Source of the DNA: Lawsonibacter sp.
Lineage (GTDB): Bacteria; Bacillota; Clostridia; Oscillospirales; Oscillospiraceae
Assembly (NCBI GenBank): GCA_022796195.1
Contig: JAAWIE010000001.1
Coordinates: forward strand, 62,001-126,000
Length of the DNA stretch: 64,000 nucleotides
Direction: 5' to 3'
Shown: in pieces, positions 43,246 through 63,065 of the stretch
Numbering within the stretch: the first letter of the stretch is position 1
Layout of the letters: each line of letters opens with the position of its first letter
Program-made: the position numbers and the translations under genes
The notes under the pieces: model-generated
What the model was told of the DNA's origin: nothing
The model's input: the letters and a program-made list of their open reading frames with translations, nothing else
Database searches by the model: none

Positions 43246-44016
43246 TCATAGCCGCTCAAATGCTCCGGCTGCATCCAAGACCGTCTCCAGTACAAAGTCT
43301 GGAAAGCGGCCTGCGCCCCTGTGGACCCGCAGGATTCCAGCGGCGGCACTCAGCAGAGCTCCGTCGGGCAGGAGCCCAAGGCCGGCCATAGGAAACATGG
43401 GGAGATCTATGACGCTGTCCCCGGCACAGATCACTTCATCCGGTCGGAATTTTTCCCGCAGACGGCGGACCGCAGTCCCCTTATTCAGGGGCGGCGGGAA
43501 GAAATAGACCTTCCGCCCGGATACCGCAATTTCCAGGCTGGTTTGTCCCGCAAAAAACGCGCCGCCTGCCTGGGCGCTCTCCCCGTCGTCGCAGGCCGCA
43601 AAAAGATAGAGCCCATCAACTATCCGGCTCCGCCGGAGCATGGGGGCCTCCGGCAGGCGGCGGGCCAGGTTGGACAATTCCTCGCGCCAAGGGGCGGTCA
43701 GTTCCAGCGTCTGGCTGTGCCAGGCCGGGTCCTCTGCCCCGTTGTCCAGTAAGATCCCGCCATTGGTGGTCACTGCGTACTGGGGCACACAGTCCGGCGG
43801 CCAGTGGATGCGCCGGTATTGGCTGACCGACCGGGTAGTCACCGGGACAAAGCGAGTTTTCCGGTTCACCTGGGCCAGCAGTTCCAGGGAACGCACCGTA
43901 CAAAAACTCTGTTCTTTGCCCTCCAAAAGCTCCACACACTGGTCCGTCTCCTGCCGGTGCCGGTAGGAGAACAACAGGGTGTTGTCCAAATCGCTGGCGA
44001 ACAGGATAGATCCCAT
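43246..44016 (-). CDS. HAD family hydrolase (Ter-locus associated)
   Basis: LFASDLDNTLLFSYRHR, TTRSVSQYRRIHWPPDCVPQYAVTTNGG, DEVICAGDSVIDLPMF. Confidence 0.85.
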   Translation of the reverse strand: MGSILFASDLDNTLLFSYRHRQETDQCVELLEGKEQSFCTVRSLELLAQVNRKTRFVPVTTRSVSQYRRIHWPPDCVPQYAVTTNGGILLDNGAEDPAWHSQTLELTAPWREELSNLARRLPEAPMLRRSRIVDGLYLFAACDDGESAQAGGAFFAGQTSLEIAVSGRKVYFFPPPLNKGTAVRRLREKFRPDEVICAGDSVIDLPMFPMAGLGLLPDGALLSAAAGILRVHRGAGRFPDFVLETVLDAAGAFERL

Positions 44017-44019
44017 GGC

Positions 44020-45072
44020 TCAATTATCTGCCAGAGCCTGGATAAGACCGCAGGCCCGGTAATGCTCCAGCGGGTATTCCACCAGACGGGCGCCCTTCTC
44101 CTTCGCCAGCTGGTAGAGATGCCCTAAATGTTCCGCGTCGTGCAGACTGCGCACCAGAATCATCCAAGGCATCCGCCGCAGCAGTACCCGGGTCGCCTCG
44201 CCAATGCCCGGCTTAACCAGGTTCCGATCCTGAAGCCCGAAGTGTGCGCAGATACTGGATACCTCCTCCGCCGCGCTTTGGGAGAAGGTCCGCTCCTCCT
44301 CCTGCCGGGGGCGGGTATCCGGGAAACGGTCCGCCACCGTATTCAGAAAGGCGTATGTCTGGTCCTGCTCCCTCCACTGGCTGTAAAAAGCTGCTCCATG
44401 GAACTCACCAGGGGCAATGATGTCTGAGCGGTAGAAGGTGCGGCTCAACAGTCCGGACACTGTCGCGTTCAGACAGGAGCTGGCGATCAAAAAATCGTCG
44501 CGTGTGCCCCATTTTCCGGCCAGACAGCCCGGGTCGGATAGTACGGCCAGCCCTCCGTCTACGCCGGGGTACTGCGCCGCCGCCTGTCTCAGCTCCTGCT
44601 GAATGGCGCCTTTGCCCGTCCAGCCGTCCACGAACTGGAGTTGTTCCGGACGGTGCCGCCCCAGGATATAGGACATGGCGGCATGGTCGATCCCTCTGCC
44701 TCGGATGATGGAAATGGTATAATGTTCCACGGCTGTGCCGTATCGGAACTTGAGATACCACTGAATCAGGATCCCGATGGGTGTACCTGCCCGGGCCAGC
44801 GAGACAAGGACTACATCCCGGCCCTTATCTCGCCAAATTTTCTCCGCCACGCAGGCCACCGCCTCCGCCGTCATGCCGGCGTACCGGTCCAAGGCGTCCT
44901 GGTATGCGGCCAGATAGGCGGAGGAAGGCTCATACTCTACTGGCAGCATTTCGGAGTAGTGGGTACCGCTCTGGATTTTTGCTTCCCGCTCTCGAGTTCC
45001 CATAGGCTCCACCAGACCGGTAATGTCCTTCAATAGGATGGTCACGTCACAGCTCTGATAGGTACCAAACAT
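44020..45072 (-). CDS. StiP / PRTase_1 family protein (Ter-locus associated)
   Basis: MFGTYQSCDVTILLKDITGLVEPMGTREREAKIQSGTHYSEMLPVEYEPS; VVLVSLARAGTPIGILIQW; position beside PRTase/TRSP, HAD and TerD genes. Confidence 0.8.
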   Translation of the reverse strand: MFGTYQSCDVTILLKDITGLVEPMGTREREAKIQSGTHYSEMLPVEYEPSSAYLAAYQDALDRYAGMTAEAVACVAEKIWRDKGRDVVLVSLARAGTPIGILIQWYLKFRYGTAVEHYTISIIRGRGIDHAAMSYILGRHRPEQLQFVDGWTGKGAIQQELRQAAAQYPGVDGGLAVLSDPGCLAGKWGTRDDFLIASSCLNATVSGLLSRTFYRSDIIAPGEFHGAAFYSQWREQDQTYAFLNTVADRFPDTRPRQEEERTFSQSAAEEVSSICAHFGLQDRNLVKPGIGEATRVLLRRMPWMILVRSLHDAEHLGHLYQLAKEKGARLVEYPLEHYRACGLIQALADN

Positions 45073-46213
45073 TGCGTCCTCCCTGTAACAAGTAAATCTG
45101 CCCGCACCCCCAAGGGGCCCAAGCGGCGGTCAATTCATTCAGCGCCTCTTGCCGGTAGGTTGGGGCGTCCGACACCACAATCAGCGCATCGCATGGGGCA
45201 AAGTTGTAGAGATAGGTGTCCCGCTCCGCTTCATAAAAGCTGCTAAGCTTTTTCCCCGAAGTGATGGGATAGCCAGGGGCAGCGCAGAGCCCGATGGGAC
45301 TCCGGGTAGTGGCGTGGCATTGGACGGAATATCCCCGGTGCTCCAGCTCCCTGCCCAGCACGAGGGCGGGATACATACACTCCTCGGTCCCCAGCACCAC
45401 AATGCGCTCCAGGCCGCGGAGAGCAGAAGCGGCGAACGTCCAAAAAGCGCCGGCCATCTTCTGGCAGTGTTCCTGATAGCGGTGGATGGGGGTCCCTCTT
45501 CGGGGGTCGGGCAGGGGCGGACTGTCCAGCTCACCGTGGGAGAACGTATTCTCTGCCCCCTTCGCCGGTTCCGCCTCCTCTACCTGGAATGCTGCTGCAG
45601 TTCCGGCGGGGTCCTCCCCGGTCACTTTGACCAGCCATTCGCTGTGCAGGCCCGCCTCCAGCATTCTCTGTTCATCCTCCGGCGAAACCCGGTTGAGCAG
45701 AGAGGCCGCAACCAGCCGCTTTTCCCCGAAACCGGGGTACTGCTCCCGGAGCTTGCGGACCATGTTTCGCAAGGTTTTGCCGGTGGAGATCTCATCATCC
45801 ACCAGAATTACCCACTCGGTCTCCTTGAGCCGTGCCTCCAGGCGGTCGCCGCAGAGCTTCTGCTCTACGGCATGGCTGTGCTCTTCGGAAAACAGCGCCC
45901 AGGTTTCCACTTCGGGCACCGGCTCCCGGGTTGTATGCAGATACAGGCATTCCGGCCCCAGCCGGCTGGCAGCCGCTGCGCCGATGGCCGTTGCTGTTTC
46001 GGCAAAACCGATGACCAATTTGGTCCCAGGGTACTTTTGAGCCAGCTGGCCGCCCAGCGTTTCCATCATCTCCAGCGCCTGGGTGGGAGATACTGGGATA
46101 TGCTTGGCCTGAAGGGGGTTTACCAGCAGATAGGACCGCTTGGTGTTGTTGACCCGCTTAGCGACGCGCAGGATGTCAGTTTGAACATAGCGCAAGCGAT
46201 TCCCTCCATTCAT
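45047..46213 (-). CDS. Phosphoribosyltransferase domain protein with TRSP-like C-terminus (Ter-locus associated)
   Basis: PRTase signature WVILVDDEISTGKTLRNMV; KLVIGFAETATAIG; C-terminal YQEHCQKMAGAFW...VLGTEECMYPALVLGRELE. Confidence 0.8.
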   Translation of the reverse strand: MNGGNRLRYVQTDILRVAKRVNNTKRSYLLVNPLQAKHIPVSPTQALEMMETLGGQLAQKYPGTKLVIGFAETATAIGAAAASRLGPECLYLHTTREPVPEVETWALFSEEHSHAVEQKLCGDRLEARLKETEWVILVDDEISTGKTLRNMVRKLREQYPGFGEKRLVAASLLNRVSPEDEQRMLEAGLHSEWLVKVTGEDPAGTAAAFQVEEAEPAKGAENTFSHGELDSPPLPDPRRGTPIHRYQEHCQKMAGAFWTFAASALRGLERIVVLGTEECMYPALVLGRELEHRGYSVQCHATTRSPIGLCAAPGYPITSGKKLSSFYEAERDTYLYNFAPCDALIVVSDAPTYRQEALNELTAAWAPWGCGQIYLLQGGRNVWYLSEL

Positions 46214-46773
46214 TTACGGCGTTTGGCCGATAAAAATCCAAAGGATGTACCGCAGGCCCCGCCTACGATGTGCATGAAATTGGCCACATTGTCCTGTACA
46301 AAGACGATGGCGTAGACCTCCTGCCCCAGATAGAGCAGGGCCGCAAGGACCATAGTCAAGGGAATTTTCCCGTCCTGCATGCCGGACAGAGAGGCCAGCA
46401 TAATCAACATAAATACGATTCCGCTGGCCCCCAGCAGGGCGGAACCGGGGAAGCACACGAACTGCAAAAGTCCAGAAATCAGGGCCGTAAGCGCGATGCC
46501 TGCCAGCAAAGCTGGACTGCCGTACTTTTCCTCCATGGGCGGGCCGACCACCAGCAGAAGAAGCATATTCCCTAAAAAGTGGCTGGCGCCGGCGTGGCCC
46601 AGCACGTGGCCGAACAGGCGCACATAAGTAAGGGGCTCTGACAGGGGCGACCGGTAGACGGAAAACAGGTGCCAGGTGGTCCAGTTTTTCGTCAGGTAAC
46701 CCAGGGCCAGAGCCAGCAGAGACAGAAGAAAAAAGCTGAGGATGACAGGAGAATTATACTGCAATTTTTTCAT
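46210..46773 (-). CDS. Rhomboid family intramembrane serine protease
   Basis: ASHFLGNMLLLLVVG, catalytic LLGASGIVFMLIM, NFMHIVGGACG; ATGA overlap with the PRTase gene. Confidence 0.85.
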   Translation of the reverse strand: MKKLQYNSPVILSFFLLSLLALALGYLTKNWTTWHLFSVYRSPLSEPLTYVRLFGHVLGHAGASHFLGNMLLLLVVGPPMEEKYGSPALLAGIALTALISGLLQFVCFPGSALLGASGIVFMLIMLASLSGMQDGKIPLTMVLAALLYLGQEVYAIVFVQDNVANFMHIVGGACGTSFGFLSAKRRK

Positions 46774-46837: not shown

Positions 46838-49483
46838 TTATGCGCTGCGGGATAAAACCTTCCGAAGCAGGTCCACCGGGATCATGGTAACCGCTAGAAC
46901 GGCCACCACGCACCAGCCTGCTGGGCCGAAGGGTACGCAGCTGAACATACTGCCCACCCAACTTGTGGCGGGAATCAGCCCCGCATTGACAATCGCCGCC
47001 TGAACCAGGATGATGGTAGCAAACACCTTTAAGAATCCGGTATTTTCATTCAAACCCTTAAAAATTGCAAAGCCCTCATCCCGGACGTTGAAGCCGTTAA
47101 ACAGTGCGCACCAGATGAACAGAACGAAGTAGGCGGAGAGCTTCTGCTCCGTGGTGGCGAAGAACTGGTTGAAGAAGGGGAGCTTTAGGAAGGCGAAGCT
47201 CAAGGCCGTCAGCCATATGCCCATGGTGACGATCTGCACCATCATAGCCTTGCTGACAATACTCTCGTCTCTTCTCCGGGGTGTTTCCGCCATATAATGT
47301 TCCCGGGCGGGCTCATTGCCCAGCATGATGGCCCCCAGGCCGTCCATGACCAAGTTGACGAACAGCAGATGGGTCACCTTCAGCGGCTCTTCCACCCCGA
47401 AGAAGGGGGCAACCGCACTGACCACAACGGCGGCCACGTTAATCACCAGCTGGAATTTACAGAATTTCAGAATGTTGTGGTAAATAGTCCGGCCATACCA
47501 GATGGCGTCTTTGATGGACTTAAAGTTGTCGTCCAGAATGACAATCTTACCCGCCTCTTTGGCCGCCTCGGTGCCGCTGCCCATGGCAAACCCTACGTCT
47601 GCCCGTTTCAAGGCCGGAGAGTCGTTGACCCCGTCGCCAGTCATGCCCACCACCAGATTCATCTCCTGGCAGAGCCGGACCATGCGGGATTTGTCTGTGG
47701 GCAGAGCCCGGGCAATGACCCGGATGCGGGGGATGATTTTCTTTACTTCATCGTCAGACAGCTTGCTCAGCTGGCTGGAAGTCAGCGCCACATCATCCTG
47801 GTTTTTCAACAGTCCGGCATCCTTGGCGATGGCCACGGCAGTCTCCAGCCGGTCGCCGGTAATCATGACCACCTGAATGCCGGCGCTCTGCACTTCGGCG
47901 ATGGCCTCTCGGGCCTCGGGGCGGACGTCGTCCCGAATGCCGAAAAAGCCGATGACGGTGGTGTCCGAATTGATCTGGTCCTGGGTCATCTCTTTGTCGG
48001 AGTAGCCGAAGGCCAGCACACGCATAGACCGGCCCGCCAGCTCGTCAATTTTGGCGCTGAGCTGTTTGGCGTCGATCACATGAATATCACCGTTGAGGCT
48101 GAGATACTTGCCGGACACCGCCAGAAACTTTTCTGGTGCGCCTTTGTAGAAGGTTTTATCCAGTTCTCTCAGCTGGGCTTGACTAAACTTGTTGGCGGAG
48201 TTGAAACTCTGGGACTGGGTGACGGTGTAGGTTGCATCCAGCTTCTTCAAGATGTCCGCGCCCAGATACTTTACCAGAGCCTGGTCGGTGGCGTTGCCGC
48301 CGATCACCCGGCCCTCCGCGTCAAACATGGACTGGGTGTTTTTGCCGATAGCCAGGTCCAGCAGGCCCTTGATTTTCCCGTGGCTGGGCAGTTCTGACAG
48401 GGGGATGGAAATGCCGTCGGCGGTGAAGAACTCCACCACCTCCAAGTGGCCCTTGGTGATGGTACCTGTCTTATCACTGAACAGGATATTCAGAGAACCG
48501 GCGGTCTCAATGCCCTCCGCCTTGCGCACCAATACATTATGGTCCAGCATCTTGCTGGTGTTCTGCATCAGTACCAGGGAGATCATCAGCGGCAGGCCCT
48601 CGGGTACCGCGCAGACGATGATGACGATAGCAAGGGACACCGCCTCAATCACGTCCTTGATGACTTCTGTGGTTCCGGCCGCCAGGTAGGGTCCAACCCC
48701 ACCGGCGGACACCACAAAGTAGCCCATATACATCACCGCAATCACAACTGCGCCGATGTAGCCGAATGTGGAGATCATCCCTGCCAGCTTGGACAGCTTG
48801 ACCTTTAACGGGGAGTCGGGCTCCTCATCCTGCATCTCCTCGGCCATTCTGCCCATCATGGTGGATACGCCTACCTTCTGCACATCCATAACGCCCTCGC
48901 CGTCGAACAGGACTGCTCCACGAAACAGGGAGTGCTGGTCCACAAAGGTGTCCCCTGTGATCTCCCCGGCCAGCTGGAAGCCGTCTTCCGCTGCGGTCTT
49001 CCGGCACTCCTCCGCCTCTCCGTTGAGGGCGGAGTTGTCCACCTTCAGTGTGCCGAACACCAGCACGCCGTCCGCCGGAATCTTGTCGCCGGACTGGAGC
49101 AGCACCTTGTCCCCTACCACCACGTCGTCCACGTCGATGACAGAGATCACACCGTTCCGGTAGACCTTGCACTGATCCTTTTTGGTGCTGTCTTTCAGTT
49201 CGCGGTACTTGCTGTCGCTGGCTACTCCGGTTTTGGCAGAGACAAAGGCGACAATCAAAATGGCAGCGATGGTGCCCACCGGCTCATAGATATCCGCATA
49301 GCCAAGGGCCCACATAACAATCATCAGTACCGCGATTGCCAGCAGAATCCGGATCATAGGGTCGCCAAAGGTTTCTTTAAACTCCGCCCAAAAGGTAGTG
49401 GGCTCCGAGTCAGGGATCAGGTTACTGCCGTGTTGTTCCCGCGAGGCGGCAGCCTCTCGGTCAGATAATCCATTGAAGTGCAT
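46838..49483 (-). CDS. Calcium-type cation-translocating P-type ATPase
   Basis: LFSDKTGTITKGHLEV, MTGDGVNDSPALKRADVGFAMGSGTEAAKEAG, VPEGLPLMISLVL (PEGL motif). Confidence 0.95.
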   Translation of the reverse strand: MHFNGLSDREAAASREQHGSNLIPDSEPTTFWAEFKETFGDPMIRILLAIAVLMIVMWALGYADIYEPVGTIAAILIVAFVSAKTGVASDSKYRELKDSTKKDQCKVYRNGVISVIDVDDVVVGDKVLLQSGDKIPADGVLVFGTLKVDNSALNGEAEECRKTAAEDGFQLAGEITGDTFVDQHSLFRGAVLFDGEGVMDVQKVGVSTMMGRMAEEMQDEEPDSPLKVKLSKLAGMISTFGYIGAVVIAVMYMGYFVVSAGGVGPYLAAGTTEVIKDVIEAVSLAIVIIVCAVPEGLPLMISLVLMQNTSKMLDHNVLVRKAEGIETAGSLNILFSDKTGTITKGHLEVVEFFTADGISIPLSELPSHGKIKGLLDLAIGKNTQSMFDAEGRVIGGNATDQALVKYLGADILKKLDATYTVTQSQSFNSANKFSQAQLRELDKTFYKGAPEKFLAVSGKYLSLNGDIHVIDAKQLSAKIDELAGRSMRVLAFGYSDKEMTQDQINSDTTVIGFFGIRDDVRPEAREAIAEVQSAGIQVVMITGDRLETAVAIAKDAGLLKNQDDVALTSSQLSKLSDDEVKKIIPRIRVIARALPTDKSRMVRLCQEMNLVVGMTGDGVNDSPALKRADVGFAMGSGTEAAKEAGKIVILDDNFKSIKDAIWYGRTIYHNILKFCKFQLVINVAAVVVSAVAPFFGVEEPLKVTHLLFVNLVMDGLGAIMLGNEPAREHYMAETPRRRDESIVSKAMMVQIVTMGIWLTALSFAFLKLPFFNQFFATTEQKLSAYFVLFIWCALFNGFNVRDEGFAIFKGLNENTGFLKVFATIILVQAAIVNAGLIPATSWVGSMFSCVPFGPAGWCVVAVLAVTMIPVDLLRKVLSRSA

Positions 49484-49626
49484 GAGAAATTCTCCTTCGT
49501 ACATAGGAGAGAGGGGGGCGCAGAGGCCCTCCTCTCTTTCCGGTAATTTCGACCTCTTCTTCCTGCAGCGGAATGCAGGTTCTCAGACGCCGGCCTTTCT
49601 ATACATGGTAGCCATAAACGCGGCGC

Positions 49627-50223
49627 TTATACATACCGGCCAACCAGTTCTCCTAATCCGGGGTCGGTGGTGGCCTGTCCGATGGCGTTGAACTTCCACT
49701 CCCCATTGTAGCGGTATACCTCGCCAAAAATCATCGCCGTCATATTGGTGTAATTTTCGTTCAGGTTATACTTGCACAGTTCCTGGTTGGTGCGCGCGTC
49801 CACAATGCGGATAAAGGCGTTTTGAATCATGCCAAAATGTTGGCGGCGCTGAACTGCCTGATAAATATTGACCACCAGGACAATCCGGTCATATTCGGCG
49901 GGAACATGGGCCAGATCAATTACAATCTGCTCATCGTCTCCCTCCCCTGCGCCGGTAAGGTTGTCGCCCATATGGCGGACTGTACCCGACGGATGAGTCA
50001 GGTTTCCAAAGAAAACGATGTCCATTTTGTCGGTGATCTTGCCCCCGCGCAGCAGCAGTGCGGAGGCGTCGCAGTCAATCGCCTGCTGTCCGCCGCCCAA
50101 CAGGCCGCCCAGCAGCCCTTTTTTCTGGGCCTCGTCCCAGCCCAGGCCCACCACCACGGTGTCCAAGCCGGCGTTGTCTTTGGTCAAGCTGACCTTTTGC
50201 CCCTTCTGCAAACTGACAGACAT
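49627..50223 (-). CDS. TerD family protein (divergent metal site, IDCDASA)
   Basis: [30 protein letters not shown]...GDNLTGAGEGDDEQIVIDLAHVP...[11 protein letters not shown]. Confidence 0.9.
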   Translation of the reverse strand: MSVSLQKGQKVSLTKDNAGLDTVVVGLGWDEAQKKGLLGGLLGGGQQAIDCDASALLLRGGKITDKMDIVFFGNLTHPSGTVRHMGDNLTGAGEGDDEQIVIDLAHVPAEYDRIVLVVNIYQAVQRRQHFGMIQNAFIRIVDARTNQELCKYNLNENYTNMTAMIFGEVYRYNGEWKFNAIGQATTDPGLGELVGRYV

Positions 50224-50247
50224 AGTATGTTCCTCCTCAAATCGTGA

Positions 50248-50850
50248 TTACTTTCTTCCAGCCTGCCAGCGCAGCCCCCAGTGGAACGCGGCGTCCAGCG
50301 CCGGGTGGCCGGGGTAAAACTGGACAATTTTTTCCACGCTGAAAGTCTCGTCGTTAAGGTTCTCCAGCAGAACCAACCCGCACATAACGTCGTTGGAGTT
50401 GTAGGAATCCATTTTAACAATCAGGTCTTCGGCGCCCGGATACTTGATGGTGACCGTGGCGTCCGCCTGCTGCCAGTTGGCGACCCCCTCGTAGATAAAG
50501 GTATAGACTAAAATCCGCTTGAAGAGGGCGATTTGGTTTCCGTCGATGCGCAGGTTTTCCCCCGTGGTTACCGCGCCGGTGCGGTCGTCGCCGTCCAGCG
50601 CAATGTACGGCGGCTGACGCAGGGAGCCGAAGGCGTTGCCCAGCGCCTGGACTACCCCTTTCTGTCCGTTTTTGAACTCAAAGAGGCATCCAAGGTCCAG
50701 GTCAATCCCCTGTCCGCCGCTGAACATGCCAAACAGGCCCTTTTTGGCGGGCTTGGTATTCCAATTCAGATTGATGAGGATTTCTCCCAATCCTGCCGGA
50801 GTTCCTTTTTTCAGGCTGACTTTTTTTCCTTTTTCCAGACTGATTGCCAC
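50248..50850 (-). CDS. TerD family protein (divergent TerD-like paralog)
   Basis: MAISLEKGKKVSLKKGTPAGLGEILINLNWNTKP...GIDLDLGCLFEFKNGQKG...YIALDGDDRTGAVTTGENLRI. Confidence 0.85.
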   Translation of the reverse strand: MAISLEKGKKVSLKKGTPAGLGEILINLNWNTKPAKKGLFGMFSGGQGIDLDLGCLFEFKNGQKGVVQALGNAFGSLRQPPYIALDGDDRTGAVTTGENLRIDGNQIALFKRILVYTFIYEGVANWQQADATVTIKYPGAEDLIVKMDSYNSNDVMCGLVLLENLNDETFSVEKIVQFYPGHPALDAAFHWGLRWQAGRK

Positions 50851-50865
50851 AACAAATCCTCCTTG

Positions 50866-51447
50866 TTACTCAACATCGACGCCATAGTTGGCGCACAGGG
50901 CGGCAAGCCCGCCCTGATAGCCGCTTCCGATGGCGTTAAACTTCCACTCGCCGTTGTGCTTGTACAGCTCGCCGAACACCACGGCGGTCTCAATGGAGAA
51001 GTCCTCCCCCAGATCGTAGCGCAGCAGTTCTTCGCCGCTGGCCTCGTTGACAATTCGGATAAAGGCGTTGTTCACCATCCCGAAGTTCTGCCGGCGGGTC
51101 TCCGCCTCGTAAATAGTAGCAGTAAAGGCGATATGGGTGATTGTGTCGGGCAGCTTGGTCAGATCAACTTTAATCTGCTCGTCGTCTCCGTCGCCCTCGC
51201 CGGTGAGGTTGTCGCCTATGTGCTCCACCCCGCCGGAGCTGTGTTTCAGATTGCCATAGAAGACAAAGTCTCCAGACCCCGTGGTTTTCCCGCTGTCTCC
51301 CAGAAGAAACGCCGCGGCGTCCAAGTCGAAATCGCCGCCGGTGTCAAAACGGTTGACGTCCCAGCCCAGGCCCACCACGACCCTGGTCAAGCCCGGCGCG
51401 TCCTTGGTCAAGCTGACTTTCTGCCCCTTTTTCAAACTGATTGGCAT
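50866..51447 (-). CDS. TerD family protein
   Basis: [30 protein letters not shown]...[11 protein letters not shown]...[19 protein letters not shown]. Confidence 0.95.
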
Positions 51448-51459
51448 GCTGCATCCTCC

Positions 51460-52041
51460 TTACGCTACTTCAATTCCATAATGTCCGCACAGGGCCGCTA
51501 AGCCGCCCTGGAAGCCGCTCCCGATGGCGTTGAACTTCCACTCGCCGTTGTGGCGGTACAGCTCGCCTACCACGATGGCCGTCTCAATGGAAAAGTCCTC
51601 TCCCAGGTCATAGCGGATCAGGTCCGCGCCGGTGACGCTGTCCTGAATGTGGATATAGGCGTTGGACACCTGTCCGAAATTTTGCCGGCGGGTCTCCGCA
51701 TCATAAATGGTTACAGTGAAGGCCACCCGCTCTACAGAGGCGGGGACCTTAGCCAGGTCCACCACAATCTGCTCGTCGTCCCCGTCGCCCTCGCCGGTGA
51801 GATTGTCACCCATGTGCTTTACCGCGCCGCTGGGGTGCTCCAGATTTCCATAAAATACAAATTCTTTCTCGGTGGGGCATTTGCCGTTTCCGCCCACCAT
51901 GAAGGCGGCGGCGTCCAGGTCAAAGGCCGCGCCGGAGTCAAAGATGTTGACGTCCCAGCCCAGACCCACTACGATTTGAGACAGCCCCGGGTTCCCCTTG
52001 GTCAAATCTACCTTTTGTCCCTTGCTCAGATTGATCGCCAT
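51460..52041 (-). CDS. TerD family protein
   Basis: [30 protein letters not shown]...[11 protein letters not shown]...[19 protein letters not shown]. Confidence 0.95.
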
Positions 52042-52066: not shown

Positions 52067-53212
52067 TTATTGTTGATTGGGCACATGGTATCGATGGTTA
52101 AAGTCGGCTTTGATGGCCTCCAGCCGCTTCTGGTCCTCCACCCGCTGCTTGCGGGCGTTTTCCTGAATCTGCCGGGTTTCGTCAATACCGGACACGATGG
52201 TATGCCAGGTCTTTTCCAGCGTTTCAATTTTTATGGAACTGCCTGAAGCCAGACGGGCGGTCATCTTGGACTGCTCCGCGGTGTTTTGGGCGTTCCGGAT
52301 GAGCATCTCGTTGGTCTTGGCGTCCAGGGCGGACATGGCCTCGGCTTGAATCCGCTGGCGCTTGAGCATAATGGCCTGGGTCAGCGCCTGCTTGAAGACG
52401 GGCAGGGTGATGATAAAGGCGGAGTTGATTTTTCGGACCAGATTCATGTTGCTGAACTGCATGGTCTTGATCATGGGGATGGACTGCATCGCCACGTTCT
52501 CGGCAGTGCGCAGGTCTTGGGTACGCTGTTCCAGCATCATCAGCGCCTGTTCCAGTGTCGTCAGGTCAAATTGGATGGAGGCGTCTCCCGTGGCCTCCAT
52601 CTCTCCACGGCGCTGGGCAATGTAGTCCTCCAGCTCCCGGCACCCCTGTTCGCCGGCCAAAATATATTTTACCAGCTGGTGATAGTAGTCCACATTGGCC
52701 TGGAACATCTCTTCCAGCTTGCGGTTGGACTGCTTGATCTCCGATTCATACTGCTTTAGCTGCACATAGATCTTGTCCACCTCTTCGCCCATGGTGTGGT
52801 ATTTAGCCAAAATTTTGTCCAGCTGTTTGCGCAGATTGCCAAAGAGTTTTCCAAACAGGCCCGGATTGTCTTTGATCTCCTCAATGTCAAACTTATCCAT
52901 AATTTTGGCCAGAGTGGTAAGCATGGCGCTGGAGTTGTCCAGCTGGGACAGGTTCATGCTGTTGAGAATCACGTCCGAGCATTTGGAAATCTCCTCTGCC
53001 GCGCCGCTGCCAAAGGACACAATGCTCTCCAGATTGTACACCTCAATCTGGCTTGCCAGAGCGTCTACCTCCGGCGAGTTGACCAGGGCCAGAGTCATCT
53101 GGTCCCGGTCCGCCTGCACGTCGTACTGCTGGACCACCTCCGGTTCCTGGACCGGGGCAATTTCCAGAGACGGGGCCTGCCCGGGGGCCGGCCGGCCGAA
53201 ATCTAATCCCAT
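52067..53212 (-). CDS. Toxic anion resistance protein, TelA family
   Basis: EEISKCSDVILNSMNLSQLDNSSAMLTTLAKIMDKFDI...LFGKLFGNLRKQLDKILAKYHTMGEEVDKIY; TLEKTWHTIVSGIDETRQIQE. Confidence 0.93.
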   Translation of the reverse strand: MGLDFGRPAPGQAPSLEIAPVQEPEVVQQYDVQADRDQMTLALVNSPEVDALASQIEVYNLESIVSFGSGAAEEISKCSDVILNSMNLSQLDNSSAMLTTLAKIMDKFDIEEIKDNPGLFGKLFGNLRKQLDKILAKYHTMGEEVDKIYVQLKQYESEIKQSNRKLEEMFQANVDYYHQLVKYILAGEQGCRELEDYIAQRRGEMEATGDASIQFDLTTLEQALMMLEQRTQDLRTAENVAMQSIPMIKTMQFSNMNLVRKINSAFIITLPVFKQALTQAIMLKRQRIQAEAMSALDAKTNEMLIRNAQNTAEQSKMTARLASGSSIKIETLEKTWHTIVSGIDETRQIQENARKQRVEDQKRLEAIKADFNHRYHVPNQQ

Positions 53213-53218
53213 ACTTCA

Positions 53219-55483
53219 TTAACTCCTTCCAAACCATTTTCTGATAGAACCCCGCCCCCGCTCTGAAATCCGGGTGAAATCCGGGGGCGGCAGGTCATAA
53301 AGGTACTCGCCAATCTGCTGTTCATTGGCGAAGGGGGCGGTAAAGTACCGCTCGATGCACTGGTAGCCTGTGGGGACGAAGAACAAAATGTCAAACCCCA
53401 ACAGGTTTAGGAAGGCAAACAAGATGCCGTCTTCCAGGGATAGTATTTCCTCTGAGGTGTGAATCACAATCAGTTTCGGATTCTTTTTGGTAAAATCAAA
53501 CTTCTGGAGCAGGCGCAGCAGCTCCTTTTTCAAGTTCAGGGCCGCGGCAATGACGGTATACTCCGTGCCGTTTTGGTAGGTGCCTGCGATGGTCCGCCGG
53601 TCCAGCAGGAGCTGGAGCTTGTCCAGCAGATAATCCTGCATCTCCCCCCGCAAAATGCCATAGGGGTACGCCTTGTGGGCCTTAATCTTATCCTTGAGCA
53701 GTCTGCCGTTTCGCAAAAATTGGGTTGCGCCGGCTCGCATGGGATTTTCGTCCAGGGGACTGGTCCAGGGCAATTTGGGCACTACCAGGGTTTCCGGCGT
53801 CATCAGCTTCTTGATTTCCAGCCAGTACCGCCCGACATCCCCGTCCTTCACACCGCATATTTTTTCCAGCAGTACAGGCAGGGTTACCATACCGTTGTTC
53901 ACCTGAAAGGAGGGCCGGTATTTCAGTTCCTGGTCCCACAGAATGGCAATTTCTTCATACATCGTCCGCAGGGTGATGGCCTCTGCCTTGGCGTACTGCT
54001 GGTTTCGATAGAGTCCCGTGTCCTGATACATCATGCCGTCCAAGTCCCGTTCCGCCTGGTAGGCCGCCGTGCTCACCCGCAGCTGACCGCTCTCCGCCGG
54101 GAACGCCTCCATAGAGAGGGAATCTTCATAGCGCAGCTCCAGCAGGGCGGGGTCCCGCAGACAGCTCCCCTTGTCCAGGCTGGGCTGGAGCAGCGCCACG
54201 TCCACCGGGAGCTTTGCCAGCAGCCGCAGGAAACGGGCCTCATGTTCCGTCGTGCCTCCACCAAAGAGGAGGAAAACCGGCACCTCCGGCGGTTTCCAGC
54301 CCTCAAACAGTTCCTTTTGCCAACGTTTCAGCCAGCACAGGAGGTAAACCGCCTGGTTTGCCGCCCTGGACACATTCCGGTCCGGTCCCCCCTCTTCCAA
54401 TACAAGGTCGAGGAATCCTTTTACCATCAGACTTTGCAGTTCCGCGCTGGCGGGACAGCGGATGTTTTGGGCCAGATCGCCCGCCATCTGCTCAAGGTTC
54501 CGATAGTTTTTTCGCGGCACCGCGGCGACCTCCTCCGGGGTGGGAACTGGGATGCTGCCGTTGACCACACAGACCCGCCTCCCTTCGCTTTTCAGCCGCT
54601 GGTAAAACCCAAAGAGATCGGCGGAGAAGGTCAGCCGGTCAGGAACGCCGTACTGCGCCAGGAAGCTGTTATAAAAGAACCGCCCTTCGCCGCCTCGGAG
54701 GCTGGGACTGGTCAGCAATTGGTTCAGTTCCGGCCGTTCCATCCAGGCGTTTGTGCAGGGCTCCAGCTTGGGCGGCGCTCCATACAGCCTGCGCCGGTTG
54801 ACGTCCCGGGCAAGCTCCTCCCGGAGCCGCTGCAAGCTGAAATGCGGGGGGAAGGGGGACAGCCCTTCGGCCTGATAGAGCCGGGAGAGCTGGGAAGACG
54901 GGTCCAGCCTGCGATAGCCCTCGTCGCCCTCCCGCTCCAGCAGCGCCAGATCGGCCCCCGCTCTGGACAGCACAAGGAAAAGCTGAAGCTCATAGACGCT
55001 GATTGCCCCGTCATACAGAATTTTGGGGGGAACTTCCGTCCCCAGCCGGTTTACAATTCGTTCAAACCGGTAATAGAGCCAGCACATATACTTGATATAG
55101 GCATTTCGAAGCATATTTTCATTTTTCCCCTGGCGAAGCATGTCCTCCAGGGTAGAAGCCATGGCCGAAGCCACCGCTTCTCTCTGTCCGGGGGACATGC
55201 GGGGCAGCCATTTGGCAAGCCGCTGGGACAGAAAACCGCAGTCGCGCTGGAAGTCCGTTCCCATCATTTCGCCGAAATAGGCCAGCTGGCCGGGGTCTGG
55301 ATTGGGGAGCCGGCCGTCAATGATGACGCCGCCCTGCCTTGCCGCCTCGTAGTACCGGCGCAAAAAGGCGGTCACCTCCGGCGAATTTCCGGCAAAGCGG
55401 TAAAAATAGACAGACTTTTCCGGCCGCTCTGGGAGCGGGACAAAATAATCATCCAATTTTTTCAATGGAGCCTGTTGAAACAT
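53219..55483 (-). CDS. YceG-like protein of the Ter stress locus
   Basis: 754-aa protein with duplicated YceG-type segments (IKYMCWLYYRFERIV...PPKILYDGAISVYELQLFLVLSRAGADL; LFAFLNLLGFDILFFVPTGYQCIERYF). Confidence 0.7.
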   Translation of the reverse strand: MFQQAPLKKLDDYFVPLPERPEKSVYFYRFAGNSPEVTAFLRRYYEAARQGGVIIDGRLPNPDPGQLAYFGEMMGTDFQRDCGFLSQRLAKWLPRMSPGQREAVASAMASTLEDMLRQGKNENMLRNAYIKYMCWLYYRFERIVNRLGTEVPPKILYDGAISVYELQLFLVLSRAGADLALLEREGDEGYRRLDPSSQLSRLYQAEGLSPFPPHFSLQRLREELARDVNRRRLYGAPPKLEPCTNAWMERPELNQLLTSPSLRGGEGRFFYNSFLAQYGVPDRLTFSADLFGFYQRLKSEGRRVCVVNGSIPVPTPEEVAAVPRKNYRNLEQMAGDLAQNIRCPASAELQSLMVKGFLDLVLEEGGPDRNVSRAANQAVYLLCWLKRWQKELFEGWKPPEVPVFLLFGGGTTEHEARFLRLLAKLPVDVALLQPSLDKGSCLRDPALLELRYEDSLSMEAFPAESGQLRVSTAAYQAERDLDGMMYQDTGLYRNQQYAKAEAITLRTMYEEIAILWDQELKYRPSFQVNNGMVTLPVLLEKICGVKDGDVGRYWLEIKKLMTPETLVVPKLPWTSPLDENPMRAGATQFLRNGRLLKDKIKAHKAYPYGILRGEMQDYLLDKLQLLLDRRTIAGTYQNGTEYTVIAAALNLKKELLRLLQKFDFTKKNPKLIVIHTSEEILSLEDGILFAFLNLLGFDILFFVPTGYQCIERYFTAPFANEQQIGEYLYDLPPPDFTRISERGRGSIRKWFGRS

Positions 55484-55531
55484 AATCTTCAAAGTCCCTC
55501 TTTGCGATTGTGTCTGTAAGCCTTGCATAAG

Positions 55532-55560
55532 ATTGTACCACAAAACTCCCGCATTTTCAA
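55532..55560 (-). promoter_or_regulatory. Promoter of the leftward Ter operon
   Basis: Minus strand TTGAAA - 17 bp (ATGCGGGAGTTTTGTGG) - TACAAT. Confidence 0.75.
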
Positions 55561-55618
55561 CAAAATAATACACAACCCCTCTTTATGCACCTTTTTCCTC
55601 AAAACAGGAGATTGCCTG

Positions 55619-55647
55619 TTTCAAACTCTGGCTTTTTGTGCTATAAT
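55619..55647 (+). promoter_or_regulatory. Promoter of the rightward Ter arm
   Basis: TTTCAA - 17 bp - TATAAT; the -35 is weak. Confidence 0.5.
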
Positions 55648-55694
55648 CGCTTCAGTCCGAACCATCTGGATTCGGAGAAAATGAGGTGAGAAAG

Positions 55695-56723
55695 ATGGAC
55701 CAAAGCCCAACCGGCTATGACGTGGGTGCGCTGATGTACTCTCCCGCTAACGCCCACGGCACCATTGTGGACGCGCTGAAAAACGAGCGGATTCCCCATC
55801 CCTTTTCCCTGGCCTTCTGTCTGGAGGACACGGTACGGGAGGAGGCGGTGGCCGAGGCGGAACAGATGCTGCACCGCACCTTGGCGCAAATTGCAGCCGC
55901 CCGGAGGGAGACCCCATTTTACCTTCCGCTGATCTTCGTTCGGGTCCGCTCCCCGCAGCAGATGCGGAAGCTGGCCTCTGCGTTCAGCGGCTTTGCGGAA
56001 CTGCTCACCGGCTTTATCCTGCCGAAATTTTCCATCGAGAACTGCGGCGCCTATGTCGGGGCCATCCAGGACATCCGCCGCCATACCGGTCTGGACTACC
56101 GTTATATGCCCATTCTGGAGTCCCCCTCCATGCTTCCCCTCCACCAGAGGTACGCCCATTTGGCCCAGGTGAAGGACTGCTTGGAGGCGGTTTCACCGCA
56201 GATCCTGAATATCCGAGTGGGGGGAAACGACCTCTGCCACGCCTTTGGTCTGCGGCGGGATGCGGCGCATACCATTTATGATATCCGGCCTGTGGCCGGA
56301 CTGCTGACCGATCTGGTGACCACCTTTGCCCCTCAATATATCCTTTCCGGCCCGGTCTGGGAATATTACAGAGGGGAGGGCTGGGAGACCGGCCTGCGGC
56401 GGGAGCTGGAGCTGGACCGGTTATGCGGCTTGATTGGCAAGACGGTAATCCACCCCAACCAGATTCCCGTGGTCAACGACGGGCTGAAAGTCTCGGCCGC
56501 CGACTATCAAGATGCGCGCCAGATTTTGGCTTGGGACCCGACCAATCCCCGGCTGGTGTGTTCCAGCGCGGAGTCCACGCGCATGAACGAGTACAATACC
56601 CATTTCCGTTGGGCAGACCGCGTCCTGCGGCTGGCCCGGACTTATGGCGTGAAGGACAGCCTCAAAGACCCCAAAAGTCCATCGCTCCAGGATTTTCCGC
56701 ATGAACCACAAGGATCTGTTTGA
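55695..56723 (+). CDS. HpcH/HpaI aldolase/citrate-lyase-like C-C bond lyase (Ter-locus associated)
   Basis: ALMYSPANAHGTIVDALKNERIPHPFSLAFCLEDTVREEAV; LPLIFVRVRSPQQMRKLA; RVGGNDLCHAFGLRR; IGKTVIHPNQIPVVND. Confidence 0.85.
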   Translation: MDQSPTGYDVGALMYSPANAHGTIVDALKNERIPHPFSLAFCLEDTVREEAVAEAEQMLHRTLAQIAAARRETPFYLPLIFVRVRSPQQMRKLASAFSGFAELLTGFILPKFSIENCGAYVGAIQDIRRHTGLDYRYMPILESPSMLPLHQRYAHLAQVKDCLEAVSPQILNIRVGGNDLCHAFGLRRDAAHTIYDIRPVAGLLTDLVTTFAPQYILSGPVWEYYRGEGWETGLRRELELDRLCGLIGKTVIHPNQIPVVNDGLKVSAADYQDARQILAWDPTNPRLVCSSAESTRMNEYNTHFRWADRVLRLARTYGVKDSLKDPKSPSLQDFPHEPQGSV

Positions 56724-58108
56724 TGGAGGGGGCGTCATATATGAACCATTGGACCTTTCAGACTGCGCTGCGTACCCCGACCGGCGATGCGCTGGAAGAA
56801 TTTATGCTTCTGAACGGGCGGTACGCCAACTTTGTCAAAGAGACATTCTTTCTCCGATGGGCCAGCGGACAGAACTGGGAGCGGGATACGCAGCGGCTCC
56901 GCGCCTGGACGGAGCGGGGCGGAGCCCAGGGATATATCTTCATCCCCGCCCTGAGTCCCCAGCCTCCCGTGGCCCAGTCTAGCCAGTATGCCGCCCTGTA
57001 CCGGGAGGGTAGGATCGCATTCCCCTTCCGGTTTGAAAATCCCATCTGGCAGGCGGGGATGGAAACCGGCTTCGGACGGGTAGTGGAGCTGTTCAAGCAG
57101 ATACGGGGCCGCAGTGAGGACTCCATCGTCAAAAATTTTGCGGTCAAACTTCTGTACTGGATGGACACCTACTTTCCGCGGCTCTTTCTGGAGACTGGCA
57201 AGATGAACCATTTTCCCAAGTTCGCCTGTGGCGGAGGCATAAAGCTGGCAGAATACCTGTTTATGTATCTGCTGTTTCTCCTCGGCTGCGACGTACTCTA
57301 CATCAGTCCCGCCGGAGACCTGCCGGTAGACAGTCCTCAGCTGTTGGCGCTGTCCCTTCCCGTGCGGGAAGCGCCCCCCGCCGCCTCCGATGCCCCCCAG
57401 GCGCAGCGGCGTCCGGAACCTGCAGGACGGGTGGTCATCTCCAGAAACCAAATTCAGCGGCCCGAGCGGCACAGGCCCTCCCTTGCAAGCGCCCCGCCGC
57501 CCAATCCAGCCGCCCCTGTCCAGGGGGCGGTTCGGATGCCCCTGGAGTTTGAGGAGCTGGCAAAGTTTGCCTCCTCTGTCGTCATGCTGAAGGTGTTTGA
57601 CCAGAAGGATCAGTGCTTTAAAACTGGTTCCGGCGTTATCATCAGCGACAAGGGCTATGTACTCACCAACCTGCATGTGGTCAACGGCGGACGCTACTAC
57701 GGAATCCTTTTGGAGGAGGAGACGGATGTCTTTTACACCGATGAGCTGATCAAGTACCACCAGGATTATGATCTGGCTGTCCTCCGGATGCAGAAGCGGA
57801 GAGCACCCATCCCCATATCCGGCAGCGGGAGGGGGCTGGTGCGGGGACAGAAGGTTGTCGCTATTGGAAGTCCTTTGGGCCTGTTCAACTCGGTCTCAGA
57901 CGGCATCATCTCCGGATTCCGCCAGCTGGAGCGGGTCTCGATGATTCAGTTTACCGCCCCCGTGTCCCACGGCAGCAGCGGCGGAGCTCTTCTGGATCTG
58001 TATGGGGAACTGATCGGCCTGATTACCGCCGGGTACGACGACGGACAGAACCTGAATCTGGCCGTGGATTATCAGACAATCTCACAGTTCGTCCGCGGAC
58101 TGCTTTAA
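56720..58108 (+). CDS. YceG-like domain fused to an HtrA/trypsin-like serine protease
   Basis: N-terminal FAVKLLYWMDTYFPRLFLETGKMNHFPKFACGGGIKLAEYLFMYLLFLLGCDVLYISPAGD resembles the 53219-55483 protein. C-terminal triad context VLTNLHVVNGG (His), DYDLAVLRMQ (Asp), PVSHGSSGGALLDLYGELIGL (Ser). ATGA overlap with the HpcH gene. Confidence 0.8.
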   Translation: MMEGASYMNHWTFQTALRTPTGDALEEFMLLNGRYANFVKETFFLRWASGQNWERDTQRLRAWTERGGAQGYIFIPALSPQPPVAQSSQYAALYREGRIAFPFRFENPIWQAGMETGFGRVVELFKQIRGRSEDSIVKNFAVKLLYWMDTYFPRLFLETGKMNHFPKFACGGGIKLAEYLFMYLLFLLGCDVLYISPAGDLPVDSPQLLALSLPVREAPPAASDAPQAQRRPEPAGRVVISRNQIQRPERHRPSLASAPPPNPAAPVQGAVRMPLEFEELAKFASSVVMLKVFDQKDQCFKTGSGVIISDKGYVLTNLHVVNGGRYYGILLEEETDVFYTDELIKYHQDYDLAVLRMQKRRAPIPISGSGRGLVRGQKVVAIGSPLGLFNSVSDGIISGFRQLERVSMIQFTAPVSHGSSGGALLDLYGELIGLITAGYDDGQNLNLAVDYQTISQFVRGLL

Positions 58109-58113
58109 AGGAA

Positions 58114-58143
58114 CCGGACAGAAAGGAAAACCTTTCTGTCCGG
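58114..58143. terminator. Bidirectional terminator between the protease gene (+) and the GtrA-like gene (-)
   Basis: CCGGACAGAAAGG-AAAA-CCTTTCTGTCCGG then CATTTTA. Confidence 0.85.
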
Positions 58144-58732: not shown

Positions 58733-61700
58733 CTACCGGATGGCGTCGGCGGCTTTGTGTTTCTTGCCCGCATGGACAAAGCCGCTGATGATCTGGCCCA
58801 AGCCCTTGAAGAAATGACCGTTGACCATGGTGAGGATGCCCCCGGCCGACTCTGCGGTGCAGATCCCGCCGGTCATCTTGGCGATTCCCCGGAAGGGCAT
58901 ATTGTAGTTGAACATCAGGTTCAGGTTTGGAGTGCCCTTCTCCAGGCTCTTGTTCAGCATCCCGGTCAGCCGCCGGTAGACGAAGCGGGCCAGCCCGCTT
59001 TTGGCGTAGTACATCTGGCAGATGGCGTCGTTCATGGTGAGGGTGCCGCTCCAGCTCCCGTCGGGGATGGGGCGGCCCAGCAGAAGTTCAAACTGCCGGT
59101 CGGAAACCGCTTTGATTGTGCCGCTGTAGTAGTCCGCCAGTTCTCTGGCGTTGTAGGGGTTCTCTGCCCCGGTTCCCGCCACGGATACCGTTCCGGTGAG
59201 GCGGATGTCCGCTGCCGAAGCCCCGACCATAATTTGATATTCGCCGCCTCGGCTCCGTCTGCCGTGCCGGTGTTGGTCAGGGTGAAGACCACCTCGCTCT
59301 CCGACACCGTTAAGCCGCTGTAGACGAAGGTTGTGTAGCTCAAGCCAAATCCGAAGGGGAATAACACGGGGATTTTCGCCGTTTCGTAATAACGGTAGCC
59401 CACGAACGGGCCCTCTCGGTACTCGGCATTGCGCTGTTTGGCAGGAAAGTAAGGGGCTGAGGGGACGTCCTCATATTGGATGGGATAGCTCTCCGCCGGT
59501 TTGCCCGAGGGGTTGATCTCTCCCAAAATGGCCTGGAGCATGGCCCCGGCCCCCGCCTGCCCGCAGAGGTAGCCGTGGATGACAGCCCTGCACTGGTCTA
59601 GCCAAGGCATTTCCACCGCCGATCCGGCGGACATTACCGCTACGATGTTGGGGTTGACGGCGCTGACCGCCTGGAGCAGGCTGGTCTGGCTCTGGGGGAG
59701 ACGCATATGGGGACGGTCCAGGCCCTCGCTCTCGCTGATCTCATCCAATCCGATGTAGAGCAGGACCACGTCCGCCTGTTTTGCCAGCTCCACAGCCCTG
59801 GCCTGCATGGCCGGGTCGCCTTTGCCGGAACGGGGATAGCCGGGCGCAAATCCCACTACATTTAGTGGATAGTCCCCAATAATATCCATGGTGTTATCAA
59901 CTTTAGTGGCGTTGACCACCGAAGAGCCCGCCCCCTGATACCGGGCGCTCTGGGCAAACTCGCCGATCACCGCCACACGGGTCCCCTTCTCCAGGGGCAG
60001 AAGGCTCCCTTCGTTTTTCAACAGGACAATGGATGCCCCGGCGGCTTTCCGGGCCAGCGCATGGTGGGCGTCTGCGTCGAAGGGCCGGTCCTTCTGCGGT
60101 GCGATGGACTTGGTGACGGACAGTACTACGTCCAGCAGTTCGTCCACCCGGCGGTCAATCACATCCTCGCCGATGGTTCCGTCCTTCACCGCCTGGACCA
60201 GTTCCAGGTCGGAGTCCCCTCGGGTGGTGGGCATTTCCAGGTGGGAACCGGCCCGGACGCCCTCAATATGCTCGTTGGAGCCCCCCAGTCGGACACGACA
60301 AAGCCGTCGAAGCCCCACTCGTCCCGAAGGACGTTGTTCAGCAGCTGGGCGCAGCCGCCGGCCCAGCGGTTGCCGATGTGGTTGAAGGAGGACATAGCGG
60401 CCTCGCAGCCGGCATCCTTCACGCACATCTCGAAGGGCTTGAGGTAAATCTCGCGGATGGCCTGTTCGTTGGACCAGGTACACAGCATGGAGTTGCGGTT
60501 GCCCTCCTGGTCGTTCAGGGCGAAGTGCTTCATATAGGAGTATACGCCGTGGTTCTTGGCTCCGGCGACGGCGTTGGCAGCAATCGCGCCGGAAAGCAGG
60601 CCGTCCTCGGCAAAATGCTCGAAGTTCCGTCCGGCAAAGGCGGTGCGGTGGATGTTCATGGCGGGGGCGTACCAGCCGGAGGTGTTCATCTCGTCGGCCA
60701 TCTTGCCGATGCTCTCACCAAAGGACAGGGCCAGGTCCTTGCTCCAAGTGGCGGCGATCAGCACGCCTGCCGGGAAGCCCACCGAGCCCACGCCGGTGAA
60801 GTTGTTGTTGATGGAGGCGGGGCCGTCGTTGTCGTTGGTGCGCACCTTGCCGATGCTGCTGACGGAGTTGGTCTGGTAGCCGCCCAGAGAGATCAGGGCG
60901 TTCATGTCGTCCAGAGTCATCTGGTCCAGCAGCTGGTCCCACTTGGGGGCGTCGTAGGCCAGACTCCGCAGGTCCTTGAGCTGGAGGCCGTTCTTGGCCC
61001 CGGTGGTGACGGGCTGGGCGTTGGGGTCCTCGTCTGCTGCGGTGGCCTCGGCGGTGAGGTAGTTGTTCTTGTTGTAGAAGCCCGCCTTGTCCTCGGCGCT
61101 CATCTCATAGCTGGCGGGGGCGGCGGTGGCGGCGGCGTAGTTGGCGAAGCCACCGGCACGGGACAGATAGGTCACGTCGCCCTCGGCAAAGTCAAACTGG
61201 TTCACCGCAGCGGTCTGGTCGGAGGACCGGCCGGAGCTGTAATCCACGGCGGAGGAGACGGTGTAGGTCTCCGAATCCAGAACAGTGTGGGAATCGCGGT
61301 TGACGGAGATGACATAGTCCCCAGCCTCCAGCAGATAGCGGCCCTTTCCGCTCATGTCGTAGGAGGCCAGATCTTCCAGCTGGAAGGAGATGGCCACGCT
61401 GCCGGTGTTGGTGACAGTGACTTCGAAAGCAATGGTGCCATTGCTTTCGGAGATGGGTCCCATCTCCTGTTTGAAGCTGGTGTAGCTCAGGCTGTAACCG
61501 AAGGGGTACTGGACCACGTCGTCGTAGTTAATCAGGCCCTCCTCGGCGGCGGTTTCATAGAACTTATAGCCTACATAGATGCCTTCCACATAGTTGACAA
61601 AGGAGGCGGAGGAACCGGCAGGGTCAAAGCTGCTGGCGTCGCTGTCCATATCGCTCATGTTGGTGTATTTGAAGTCGCCGAAGTTGTTCCACTTCCGCCA

Positions 61701-62174: not shown

Positions 62175-63020
62175 TCAAACAACCGGGGTCTTGACGGGAA
62201 TGACAATATTCATCTCAAACCAGCTGTTCTGGTTGTGGATGGTCACCGTGCCGCCGTACTTGCCCGCCGTGTAGCGGATGGATTTGACGCCGAAGCCATG
62301 GTAGGCCCCATCCCCCTTGGTGGATATGGGGATACCATCTTGAAACTCCAGAATTTGTTCACAGTAGTTGCCGCATTGGATGATTAAGAAGTCCTTTTTG
62401 GCGTATACCGCCAGATGGATCAGCTGCTTTTTCTTGTCCTGGATGTTCAGCTCGCACTCAATGGCGTTGTCCAGCAGGTTGCCAAAGATGGAGCAGATAT
62501 CCACAATGTCCATAAAGTCCAGCCGTGCCCCGTCGGCCACACAGGTCAGCTCAACGCCGTGGCGGGCGCAGTACAGGCTTTTGCCGGTAAGGACCGTATC
62601 CAACACCGAGTTTCCTGATTCATCCGCTGATCCCTCCCACATAGTCGGCCAGGGCGTCCAGAAAGGGGCCCCGCCGTCCGCGGCTAAGGAGAAATAGTTC
62701 AGCGGCTTCAAGATGTAGTCCAGCGCGTTAACCGAGTAGCCCTGGATGGCGTATTGGGCCAGATTGGTCACAAAGACGATGACCACTTCCGGGTCCACCC
62801 TGCGGATGTGTCCCGCCGCGGTCATGCCGTCCAAAAAGGGCATATCCACATCCAGCAGCAATAGGTCATACTCCGGCCGGTACTGCTCCACCAGGTCCTC
62901 CCCGTTGTCATAGCGGGTGATGTGGAAGGTCCTTCCGGTCTCACGGCTGTAGTCGCTCAAAAACTGCTCCAGCTGCCCGAAGCACTGGGGATCGTCCTCT
63001 GCAATTAAAACATGAATCAT
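62175..63020 (-). pseudogene. Chimeric ORF: LytTR-type response-regulator receiver domain joined to the GHKL ATPase domain of a histidine kinase
   Basis: REC: MIHVLIAEDDPQCFGQLEQFL...LLLLDVDMPFLDGM...FVTNLAQYAIQGYSVNALDYILKPLNYFS. An out-of-frame LytTR C-terminus SRGRRGPFLDALADYVGGISG* is embedded, followed by kinase SVLDTVLTGKSLYCARHGVELTC...SIFGNLLDNAIE. Confidence 0.8.
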
Positions 63021-63065
63021 CCTTCTGCCCCCTCTCCGTAAAAGCGCCGCCCGCATCCGGCAGAC

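Follow-up and report, generated by a model that had tools for sequence, protein, structure and literature searches.

How Ter systems act biochemically is an old open question. These systems have been described as producing a nucleoside-like signal (PRTase, HAD), which they sense via TerB and TerD, and as exerting their action at the membrane via TerC and TelA (PMC7824862). The window analysed here, a 64,000-nucleotide stretch of a fragmented draft Lawsonibacter genome (G000:C162:62001-126000), carries a Ter locus in which one gene, on the forward strand, joins a YceG domain to a serine protease, and it raises the question of what such a protein does there. A protease that is conserved, has an evident catalytic serine and sits on a Ter domain would offer a direct handle on the proteins on which the Ter system acts.

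The open reading frame at 56720-58108 is real, as the original prediction had it, but the TTG at 56720 with which it was listed is probably not the true start. The ATG at 56741 is favoured because GGAGGGGG lies just upstream of it and because the starts of the relatives align with it. Considering the ORF call, Pfam, the alignment of relatives and the upstream sequence together, the gene probably spans 56741-58108 and encodes 455 amino acids. It comprises a single N-terminal YceG_bac unit (56741-57355, residues 1-205), a Pro/Ala/Arg-rich linker (57356-57538, residues 206-266; its length is given here as 50-60 residues), which is mostly predicted to be disordered and is the fastest evolving part, and an S1C/HtrA-type protease domain without PDZ (57539-58105, residues 267-455). 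In the AlphaFold model, obtained with 18 sequences (mean pLDDT 77.9), the N-domain is composed of mixed helices and strands, the protease domain is mostly beta-strand, and residues 212-263 of the linker are of low confidence.

The Pfam model YceG_bac (PF14266) matched the protein with 51 bits (E 2e-13) over residues 106-200 counted from the TTG, corresponding to 57035-57319, and thus exceeded the curated gathering cut-off of 25 bits. The locus encodes its own YceG on the reverse strand (53219-55573), with three PF14266 stretches in Pfam. Using hhalign, the N-domain of the fusion was found to be related to repeat 1 (probability 99.3, 170 columns) and repeat 2 (99.7, 156 columns) of this protein and not to repeat 3 (probability 3.5), and the kinship reaches past the bounds of the Pfam match. 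The N-terminus is thus akin to the YceG of its own locus, as had been proposed; an N-terminus unrelated to YceG, the outcome that the original prediction had named as counting against it, did not occur with either method. However, the multi-repeat make-up of the full-length protein was not found, since the fusion has one unit, joined to a protease, and its neighbour three. By its sequence, the fusion holds a YceG_bac domain but is no orthologue of YceG. In a tree of YceG units, the fusions fall on one side of a branch with weak support (59/20), and a single origin is not proven. A fold search in the PDB with the model of the main YceG yielded only TM-scores of ~0.1 to UvrD-type helicases and KaiC. 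The term YceG-like is appropriate for the PF14266 protein of Ter loci and needs care: it refers here to the YceG that B. subtilis has in its Ter/stress loci and not to MltG, a transglycosylase of a separate family (PF02618) that has the name alone in common with it. An MltG identity was rejected, as the fusion protein has no PF02618 match and the single MltG copy of the genome lies on another contig.

The C-terminal half matched PF13365 (Trypsin_2) with 86.8 bits (E 3e-24), over the curated cut-off. Its model resembles DegS (including structures without PDZ), Deg1, DegP and DegQ (Foldseek, best E about 1e-15), and sequence searches also placed it with the HtrA-type proteases, whose chymotrypsin-type fold and His-Asp-Ser triad it has. 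Alignment assigned the catalytic residues to His312 (codon 57674-57676), Asp344 (57770-57772) and Ser413 (57977-57979, in GSSGGAL), numbered from the ATG at 56741. The triad, predicted to be intact, is so, and its three residues do not vary among the 18 aligned sequences, that is, among the window's protein and its 17 relatives, some of them on contigs labelled Clostridioides difficile. While the fold, the triad and the overall protease domain are shared with HtrA/Deg (S1C) proteases such as DegS, DegQ and Deg1, the fusion differs from them in lacking PDZ, signal peptide and membrane anchor, and all NCBIfam HtrA models score far under their cut-offs on it. No PDZ domain was matched by Pfam, and the chain ends just past the barrel. 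Position 189 of the S1 pocket is Pro407 in the 18 sequences, as assigned by inspection of the alignment to the HtrA serine motif. Asp at this position is the mark of an Arg/Lys-specific trypsin, and with Pro407 in its place such a specificity is not expected. The designation HtrA/trypsin-like therefore holds for the HtrA/S1C type, without PDZ, and not for trypsin-like specificity.

The three segments of lowest confidence in the modelled protease domain (380-383, 409-411 and 432-436), whose sequences are strongly conserved, were assigned by us to the presumed LD, L1 and L2 loops of HtrA proteases. Activation of HtrA proteases involves a reordering of these loops. Their low confidence hints at regulation of the protease, or may come merely from the small, shallow alignment used for the model.

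An HtrA-like fold could also serve cytosolic quality control, with the protease degrading proteins that metal, oxidants or drugs have damaged, while an adaptor role for these clients would fall to the YceG unit. Although the rise of TerD synthesis in C. difficile under metronidazole (PMC6262375) would agree with such a function, the fusion has neither a PDZ nor any other domain known to bind clients, and its co-occurrence with YceG, described below, suggests a narrower role, so that we consider this explanation rather improbable.

The original prediction also saw no signal peptide or transmembrane segment, and a hydropathy scan of the 18 sequences indicated none of the export signals or membrane anchors usual for bacterial HtrA. 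In the window's protein, the most hydrophobic 19-residue segment (residues 173-191, score 1.81) lies in the YceG domain as a predicted helix and strand, and the N-terminal maximum is only 0.3, which is why neither a signal peptide nor a membrane segment is indicated. Membrane anchoring by LFMYLLFLLGCDVLY was rejected, as this stretch belongs to the conserved fold of YceG, where an ordinary helix and strand are predicted. The fusion protein thus appears, from its sequence, to stay inside the cell as a cytosolic protein. A close unfused relative of the protease (L047 9156-10646) appears to be exported and has, by inspection, a signal-like stretch at its N-terminus and a region resembling copper-amine-oxidase-N.

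In the window, the fusion gene follows a C-C bond lyase gene (PF15617 by Pfam; 55686-56723, forward strand), from which 17 bases separate it, and the two form an apparent transcription unit of two genes. Consensus matches suggest a sigma-70-like promoter with a TG before the -10 for this unit (55620-55647, forward strand) and a terminator-like hairpin with a 13-pair stem directly 3' of the fusion (58114-58143, forward strand). A second sigma-70-like promoter, likewise a consensus match, may drive the divergent YceG/TelA/TerD operon (55532-55560, reverse strand). On the reverse strand, YceG is accompanied by TelA (52067-53212), four TerD-family genes (49627-52041), a P-type cation ATPase (46838-49504), a rhomboid-family membrane protease (46210-46773), PRTase_2 with TRSP (45047-46213), StiP with PELOTA_1 (44020-45072) and a HAD hydrolase (43246-44016), and all of these run divergently from the lyase-fusion unit. 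Among the relatives, the fusion adjoins the lyase, comes after HAD or StiP, or diverges from the Ter operon; its position varies and its company is constant. Three genes of the locus are annotated as peptidases, namely the rhomboid (46210-46773), which is retained by seven or more related Ter loci, StiP (44020-45072), a cysteine protease by its Pfam name, and the fusion (56741-58108).

The fusion is not peculiar to the window and forms, by sequence comparison, a family that is conserved among several Clostridia; the named contigs that carry it include Lawsonibacter MAGs and four records labelled Clostridioides difficile. PF14266 was detected in 11 of 251 genomes of the same family, eight of which have the fusion. 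A class sample gave a PF14266 match in 20 of 391 genomes (17 over the cut-off), with fusions in the window's own genome, in G550 and, as a broken copy, in G527, and among the 399 genomes of a phylum sample the full-length fusion was found in G000, G787 and G955. A full YceG is likewise encoded by each of the 11 sampled genomes in which the fusion is intact, and in 10 of them the fusion lies near Ter genes (YceG/TelA/TerD), which upholds the proposed link to the Ter locus, with the limit that one family supplies 8 of the 12 fusion genomes and the counts are not independent. A genome that had only the fusion would show up in these surveys, because PF14266 is part of the fusion. The exception is G787, whose Ter genes are scattered and distant from the fusion (L082, L083, L045): TerD, lyase and StiP lie together, YceG lies with TelA, and a different contig holds the fusion. 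The twelfth genome, G527, has TerD genes without a full YceG, and in-frame stops mark its copy of the fusion (L061 6708-8560) as a pseudogene. Such a decay is as expected if the fusion is useful only with YceG, and it is one case. Of 29 genomes with PF14266 that were considered jointly, 18 have no intact fusion, which makes the fusion an optional part of Ter systems.

Both domains are under purifying selection, with approximate Nei-Gojobori dN/dS values of 0.04-0.10 for the protease, 0.09-0.23 for the N-domain and 0.23-0.48 for the linker, which are rough for pairs with the window's sequence, where silent-site divergence is high. A functionless chance or recent gene fusion, or an assembly artefact, might be suspected in a fragmented draft with an estimated contamination of 7.9%, but it is refuted by this selection and by the same architecture in many more sequences from independent assemblies, and its probability is negligible. 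Cargo of a mobile element was rejected as well, as the plasmid and phage collections gave no full-length match to the fusion. The RF3 gene is kept in same-genus genomes without PF14266. Other genes of the window, used as queries against the RF3 regions of these genomes, gave no match except for a weak one to a response regulator, which leaves the insertion boundary of the locus undefined.

A protease with one YceG unit would fit as an output or control arm docked on the Ter apparatus. Our preferred reading, to which we give about even chances, is that the Ter stress system has here a serine protease of the HtrA type that resides in the cytosol, is active only conditionally, and is docked to or switched by the Ter apparatus via its single YceG unit. 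The unit, kin of repeats 1 and 2, would dock the protease to YceG/TelA/TerD or let this apparatus switch it, and the flexible linker would give it reach to its substrates. The apparatus would sense stress (metal, drug, envelope damage or phage), upon which the activation loops would become ordered and specific proteins would be cut, either Ter components, as a means of regulation, or damaged or foreign proteins. The domains and their homology, the intact and conserved active site, the lack of an export signal and the co-occurrence with YceG are direct observations; from there we infer docking, regulated activation and a stress function.

Alternatively, the strong genomic linkage and the co-occurrence with YceG could reflect a maturation or switching protease of the locus that cuts one of its partners, for instance YceG or TelA, within a flexible stretch, and the YceG model is indeed of low confidence at 496-524. 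However, the fusion is absent from most YceG-bearing genomes, so cleavage cannot be a general need, and no cleavage site was identified; we judge this quite improbable. Somewhat more plausible, though still unlikely, is an anti-phage or abortive-infection effector, freed by Ter signalling to cut essential host or phage proteins. Ter systems have been tied to phage inhibition (PMC7824862, PMC12054061), prokaryotic conflict systems repeatedly employ peptidases as effectors (PMC7159879), and the protease domain weakly matches the PADLOC models RT-Protease_XI and LmuA. As in LmuA, RT-Protease and the trypsin-like peptidases of vWA-MoxR systems, a trypsin-fold peptidase is coupled to a signalling or sensor module, either within one protein or as a co-encoded one. 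Nevertheless, the similarity to these proteases is weak and limited to the protease domain, and their partner domains are not shared with the fusion. No PADLOC model matched the fusion over its full length or any other locus protein tested, full-length copies are absent from phage and plasmid records, and the slow evolution of the protease gives no sign of an arms race. A viral fold search retrieved generic proteases only.

Returning to a conditionally active protease docked on the Ter apparatus, the joining of a Ter protein to an intact, apparently intracellular HtrA-type protease suggests that the Ter system uses targeted protein cutting. It is possible, if doubtful, that Clostridia have Ter systems with a proteolytic output, in which a signal from the PRTase, HAD and lyase enzymes (proposed to be nucleoside-like), or a metal-loaded YceG/TerD complex, would switch on the YceG-tethered HtrA protease, and this would cut a particular set of host or phage proteins in the cytosol.

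There is a precedent for the fusion of a Ter domain to a protease: a TerD-trypsin protein of Pseudomonas syringae (YP_273108.1) was listed in 2008 as uncharacterised (PMC2605481). There too, a trypsin-family protease is preceded by a domain of the Ter system, but the domain is TerD instead of YceG and the host is proteobacterial. As for the view that the fusion was undescribed, no mention of a YceG-protease fusion, PF14266 or YceG_bac was found in the literature searched; this literature did not extend to a 2012 survey of Ter systems, and the apparently new fusion may have been described there. Gut commensals carry it, as do contigs labelled C. difficile, the species in which the TerD rise under metronidazole was reported (PMC6262375). 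Finally, two other features were noted in the window. One ORF (62175-63056) joins response-regulator receiver and GHKL histidine-kinase ATPase domains and looks like a deletion or an assembly junction, and an apparent glycoside hydrolase 3 gene (family assigned by inspection) lies at 59032-61658 in two overlapping ORFs of different frames, probably owing to a frameshift.
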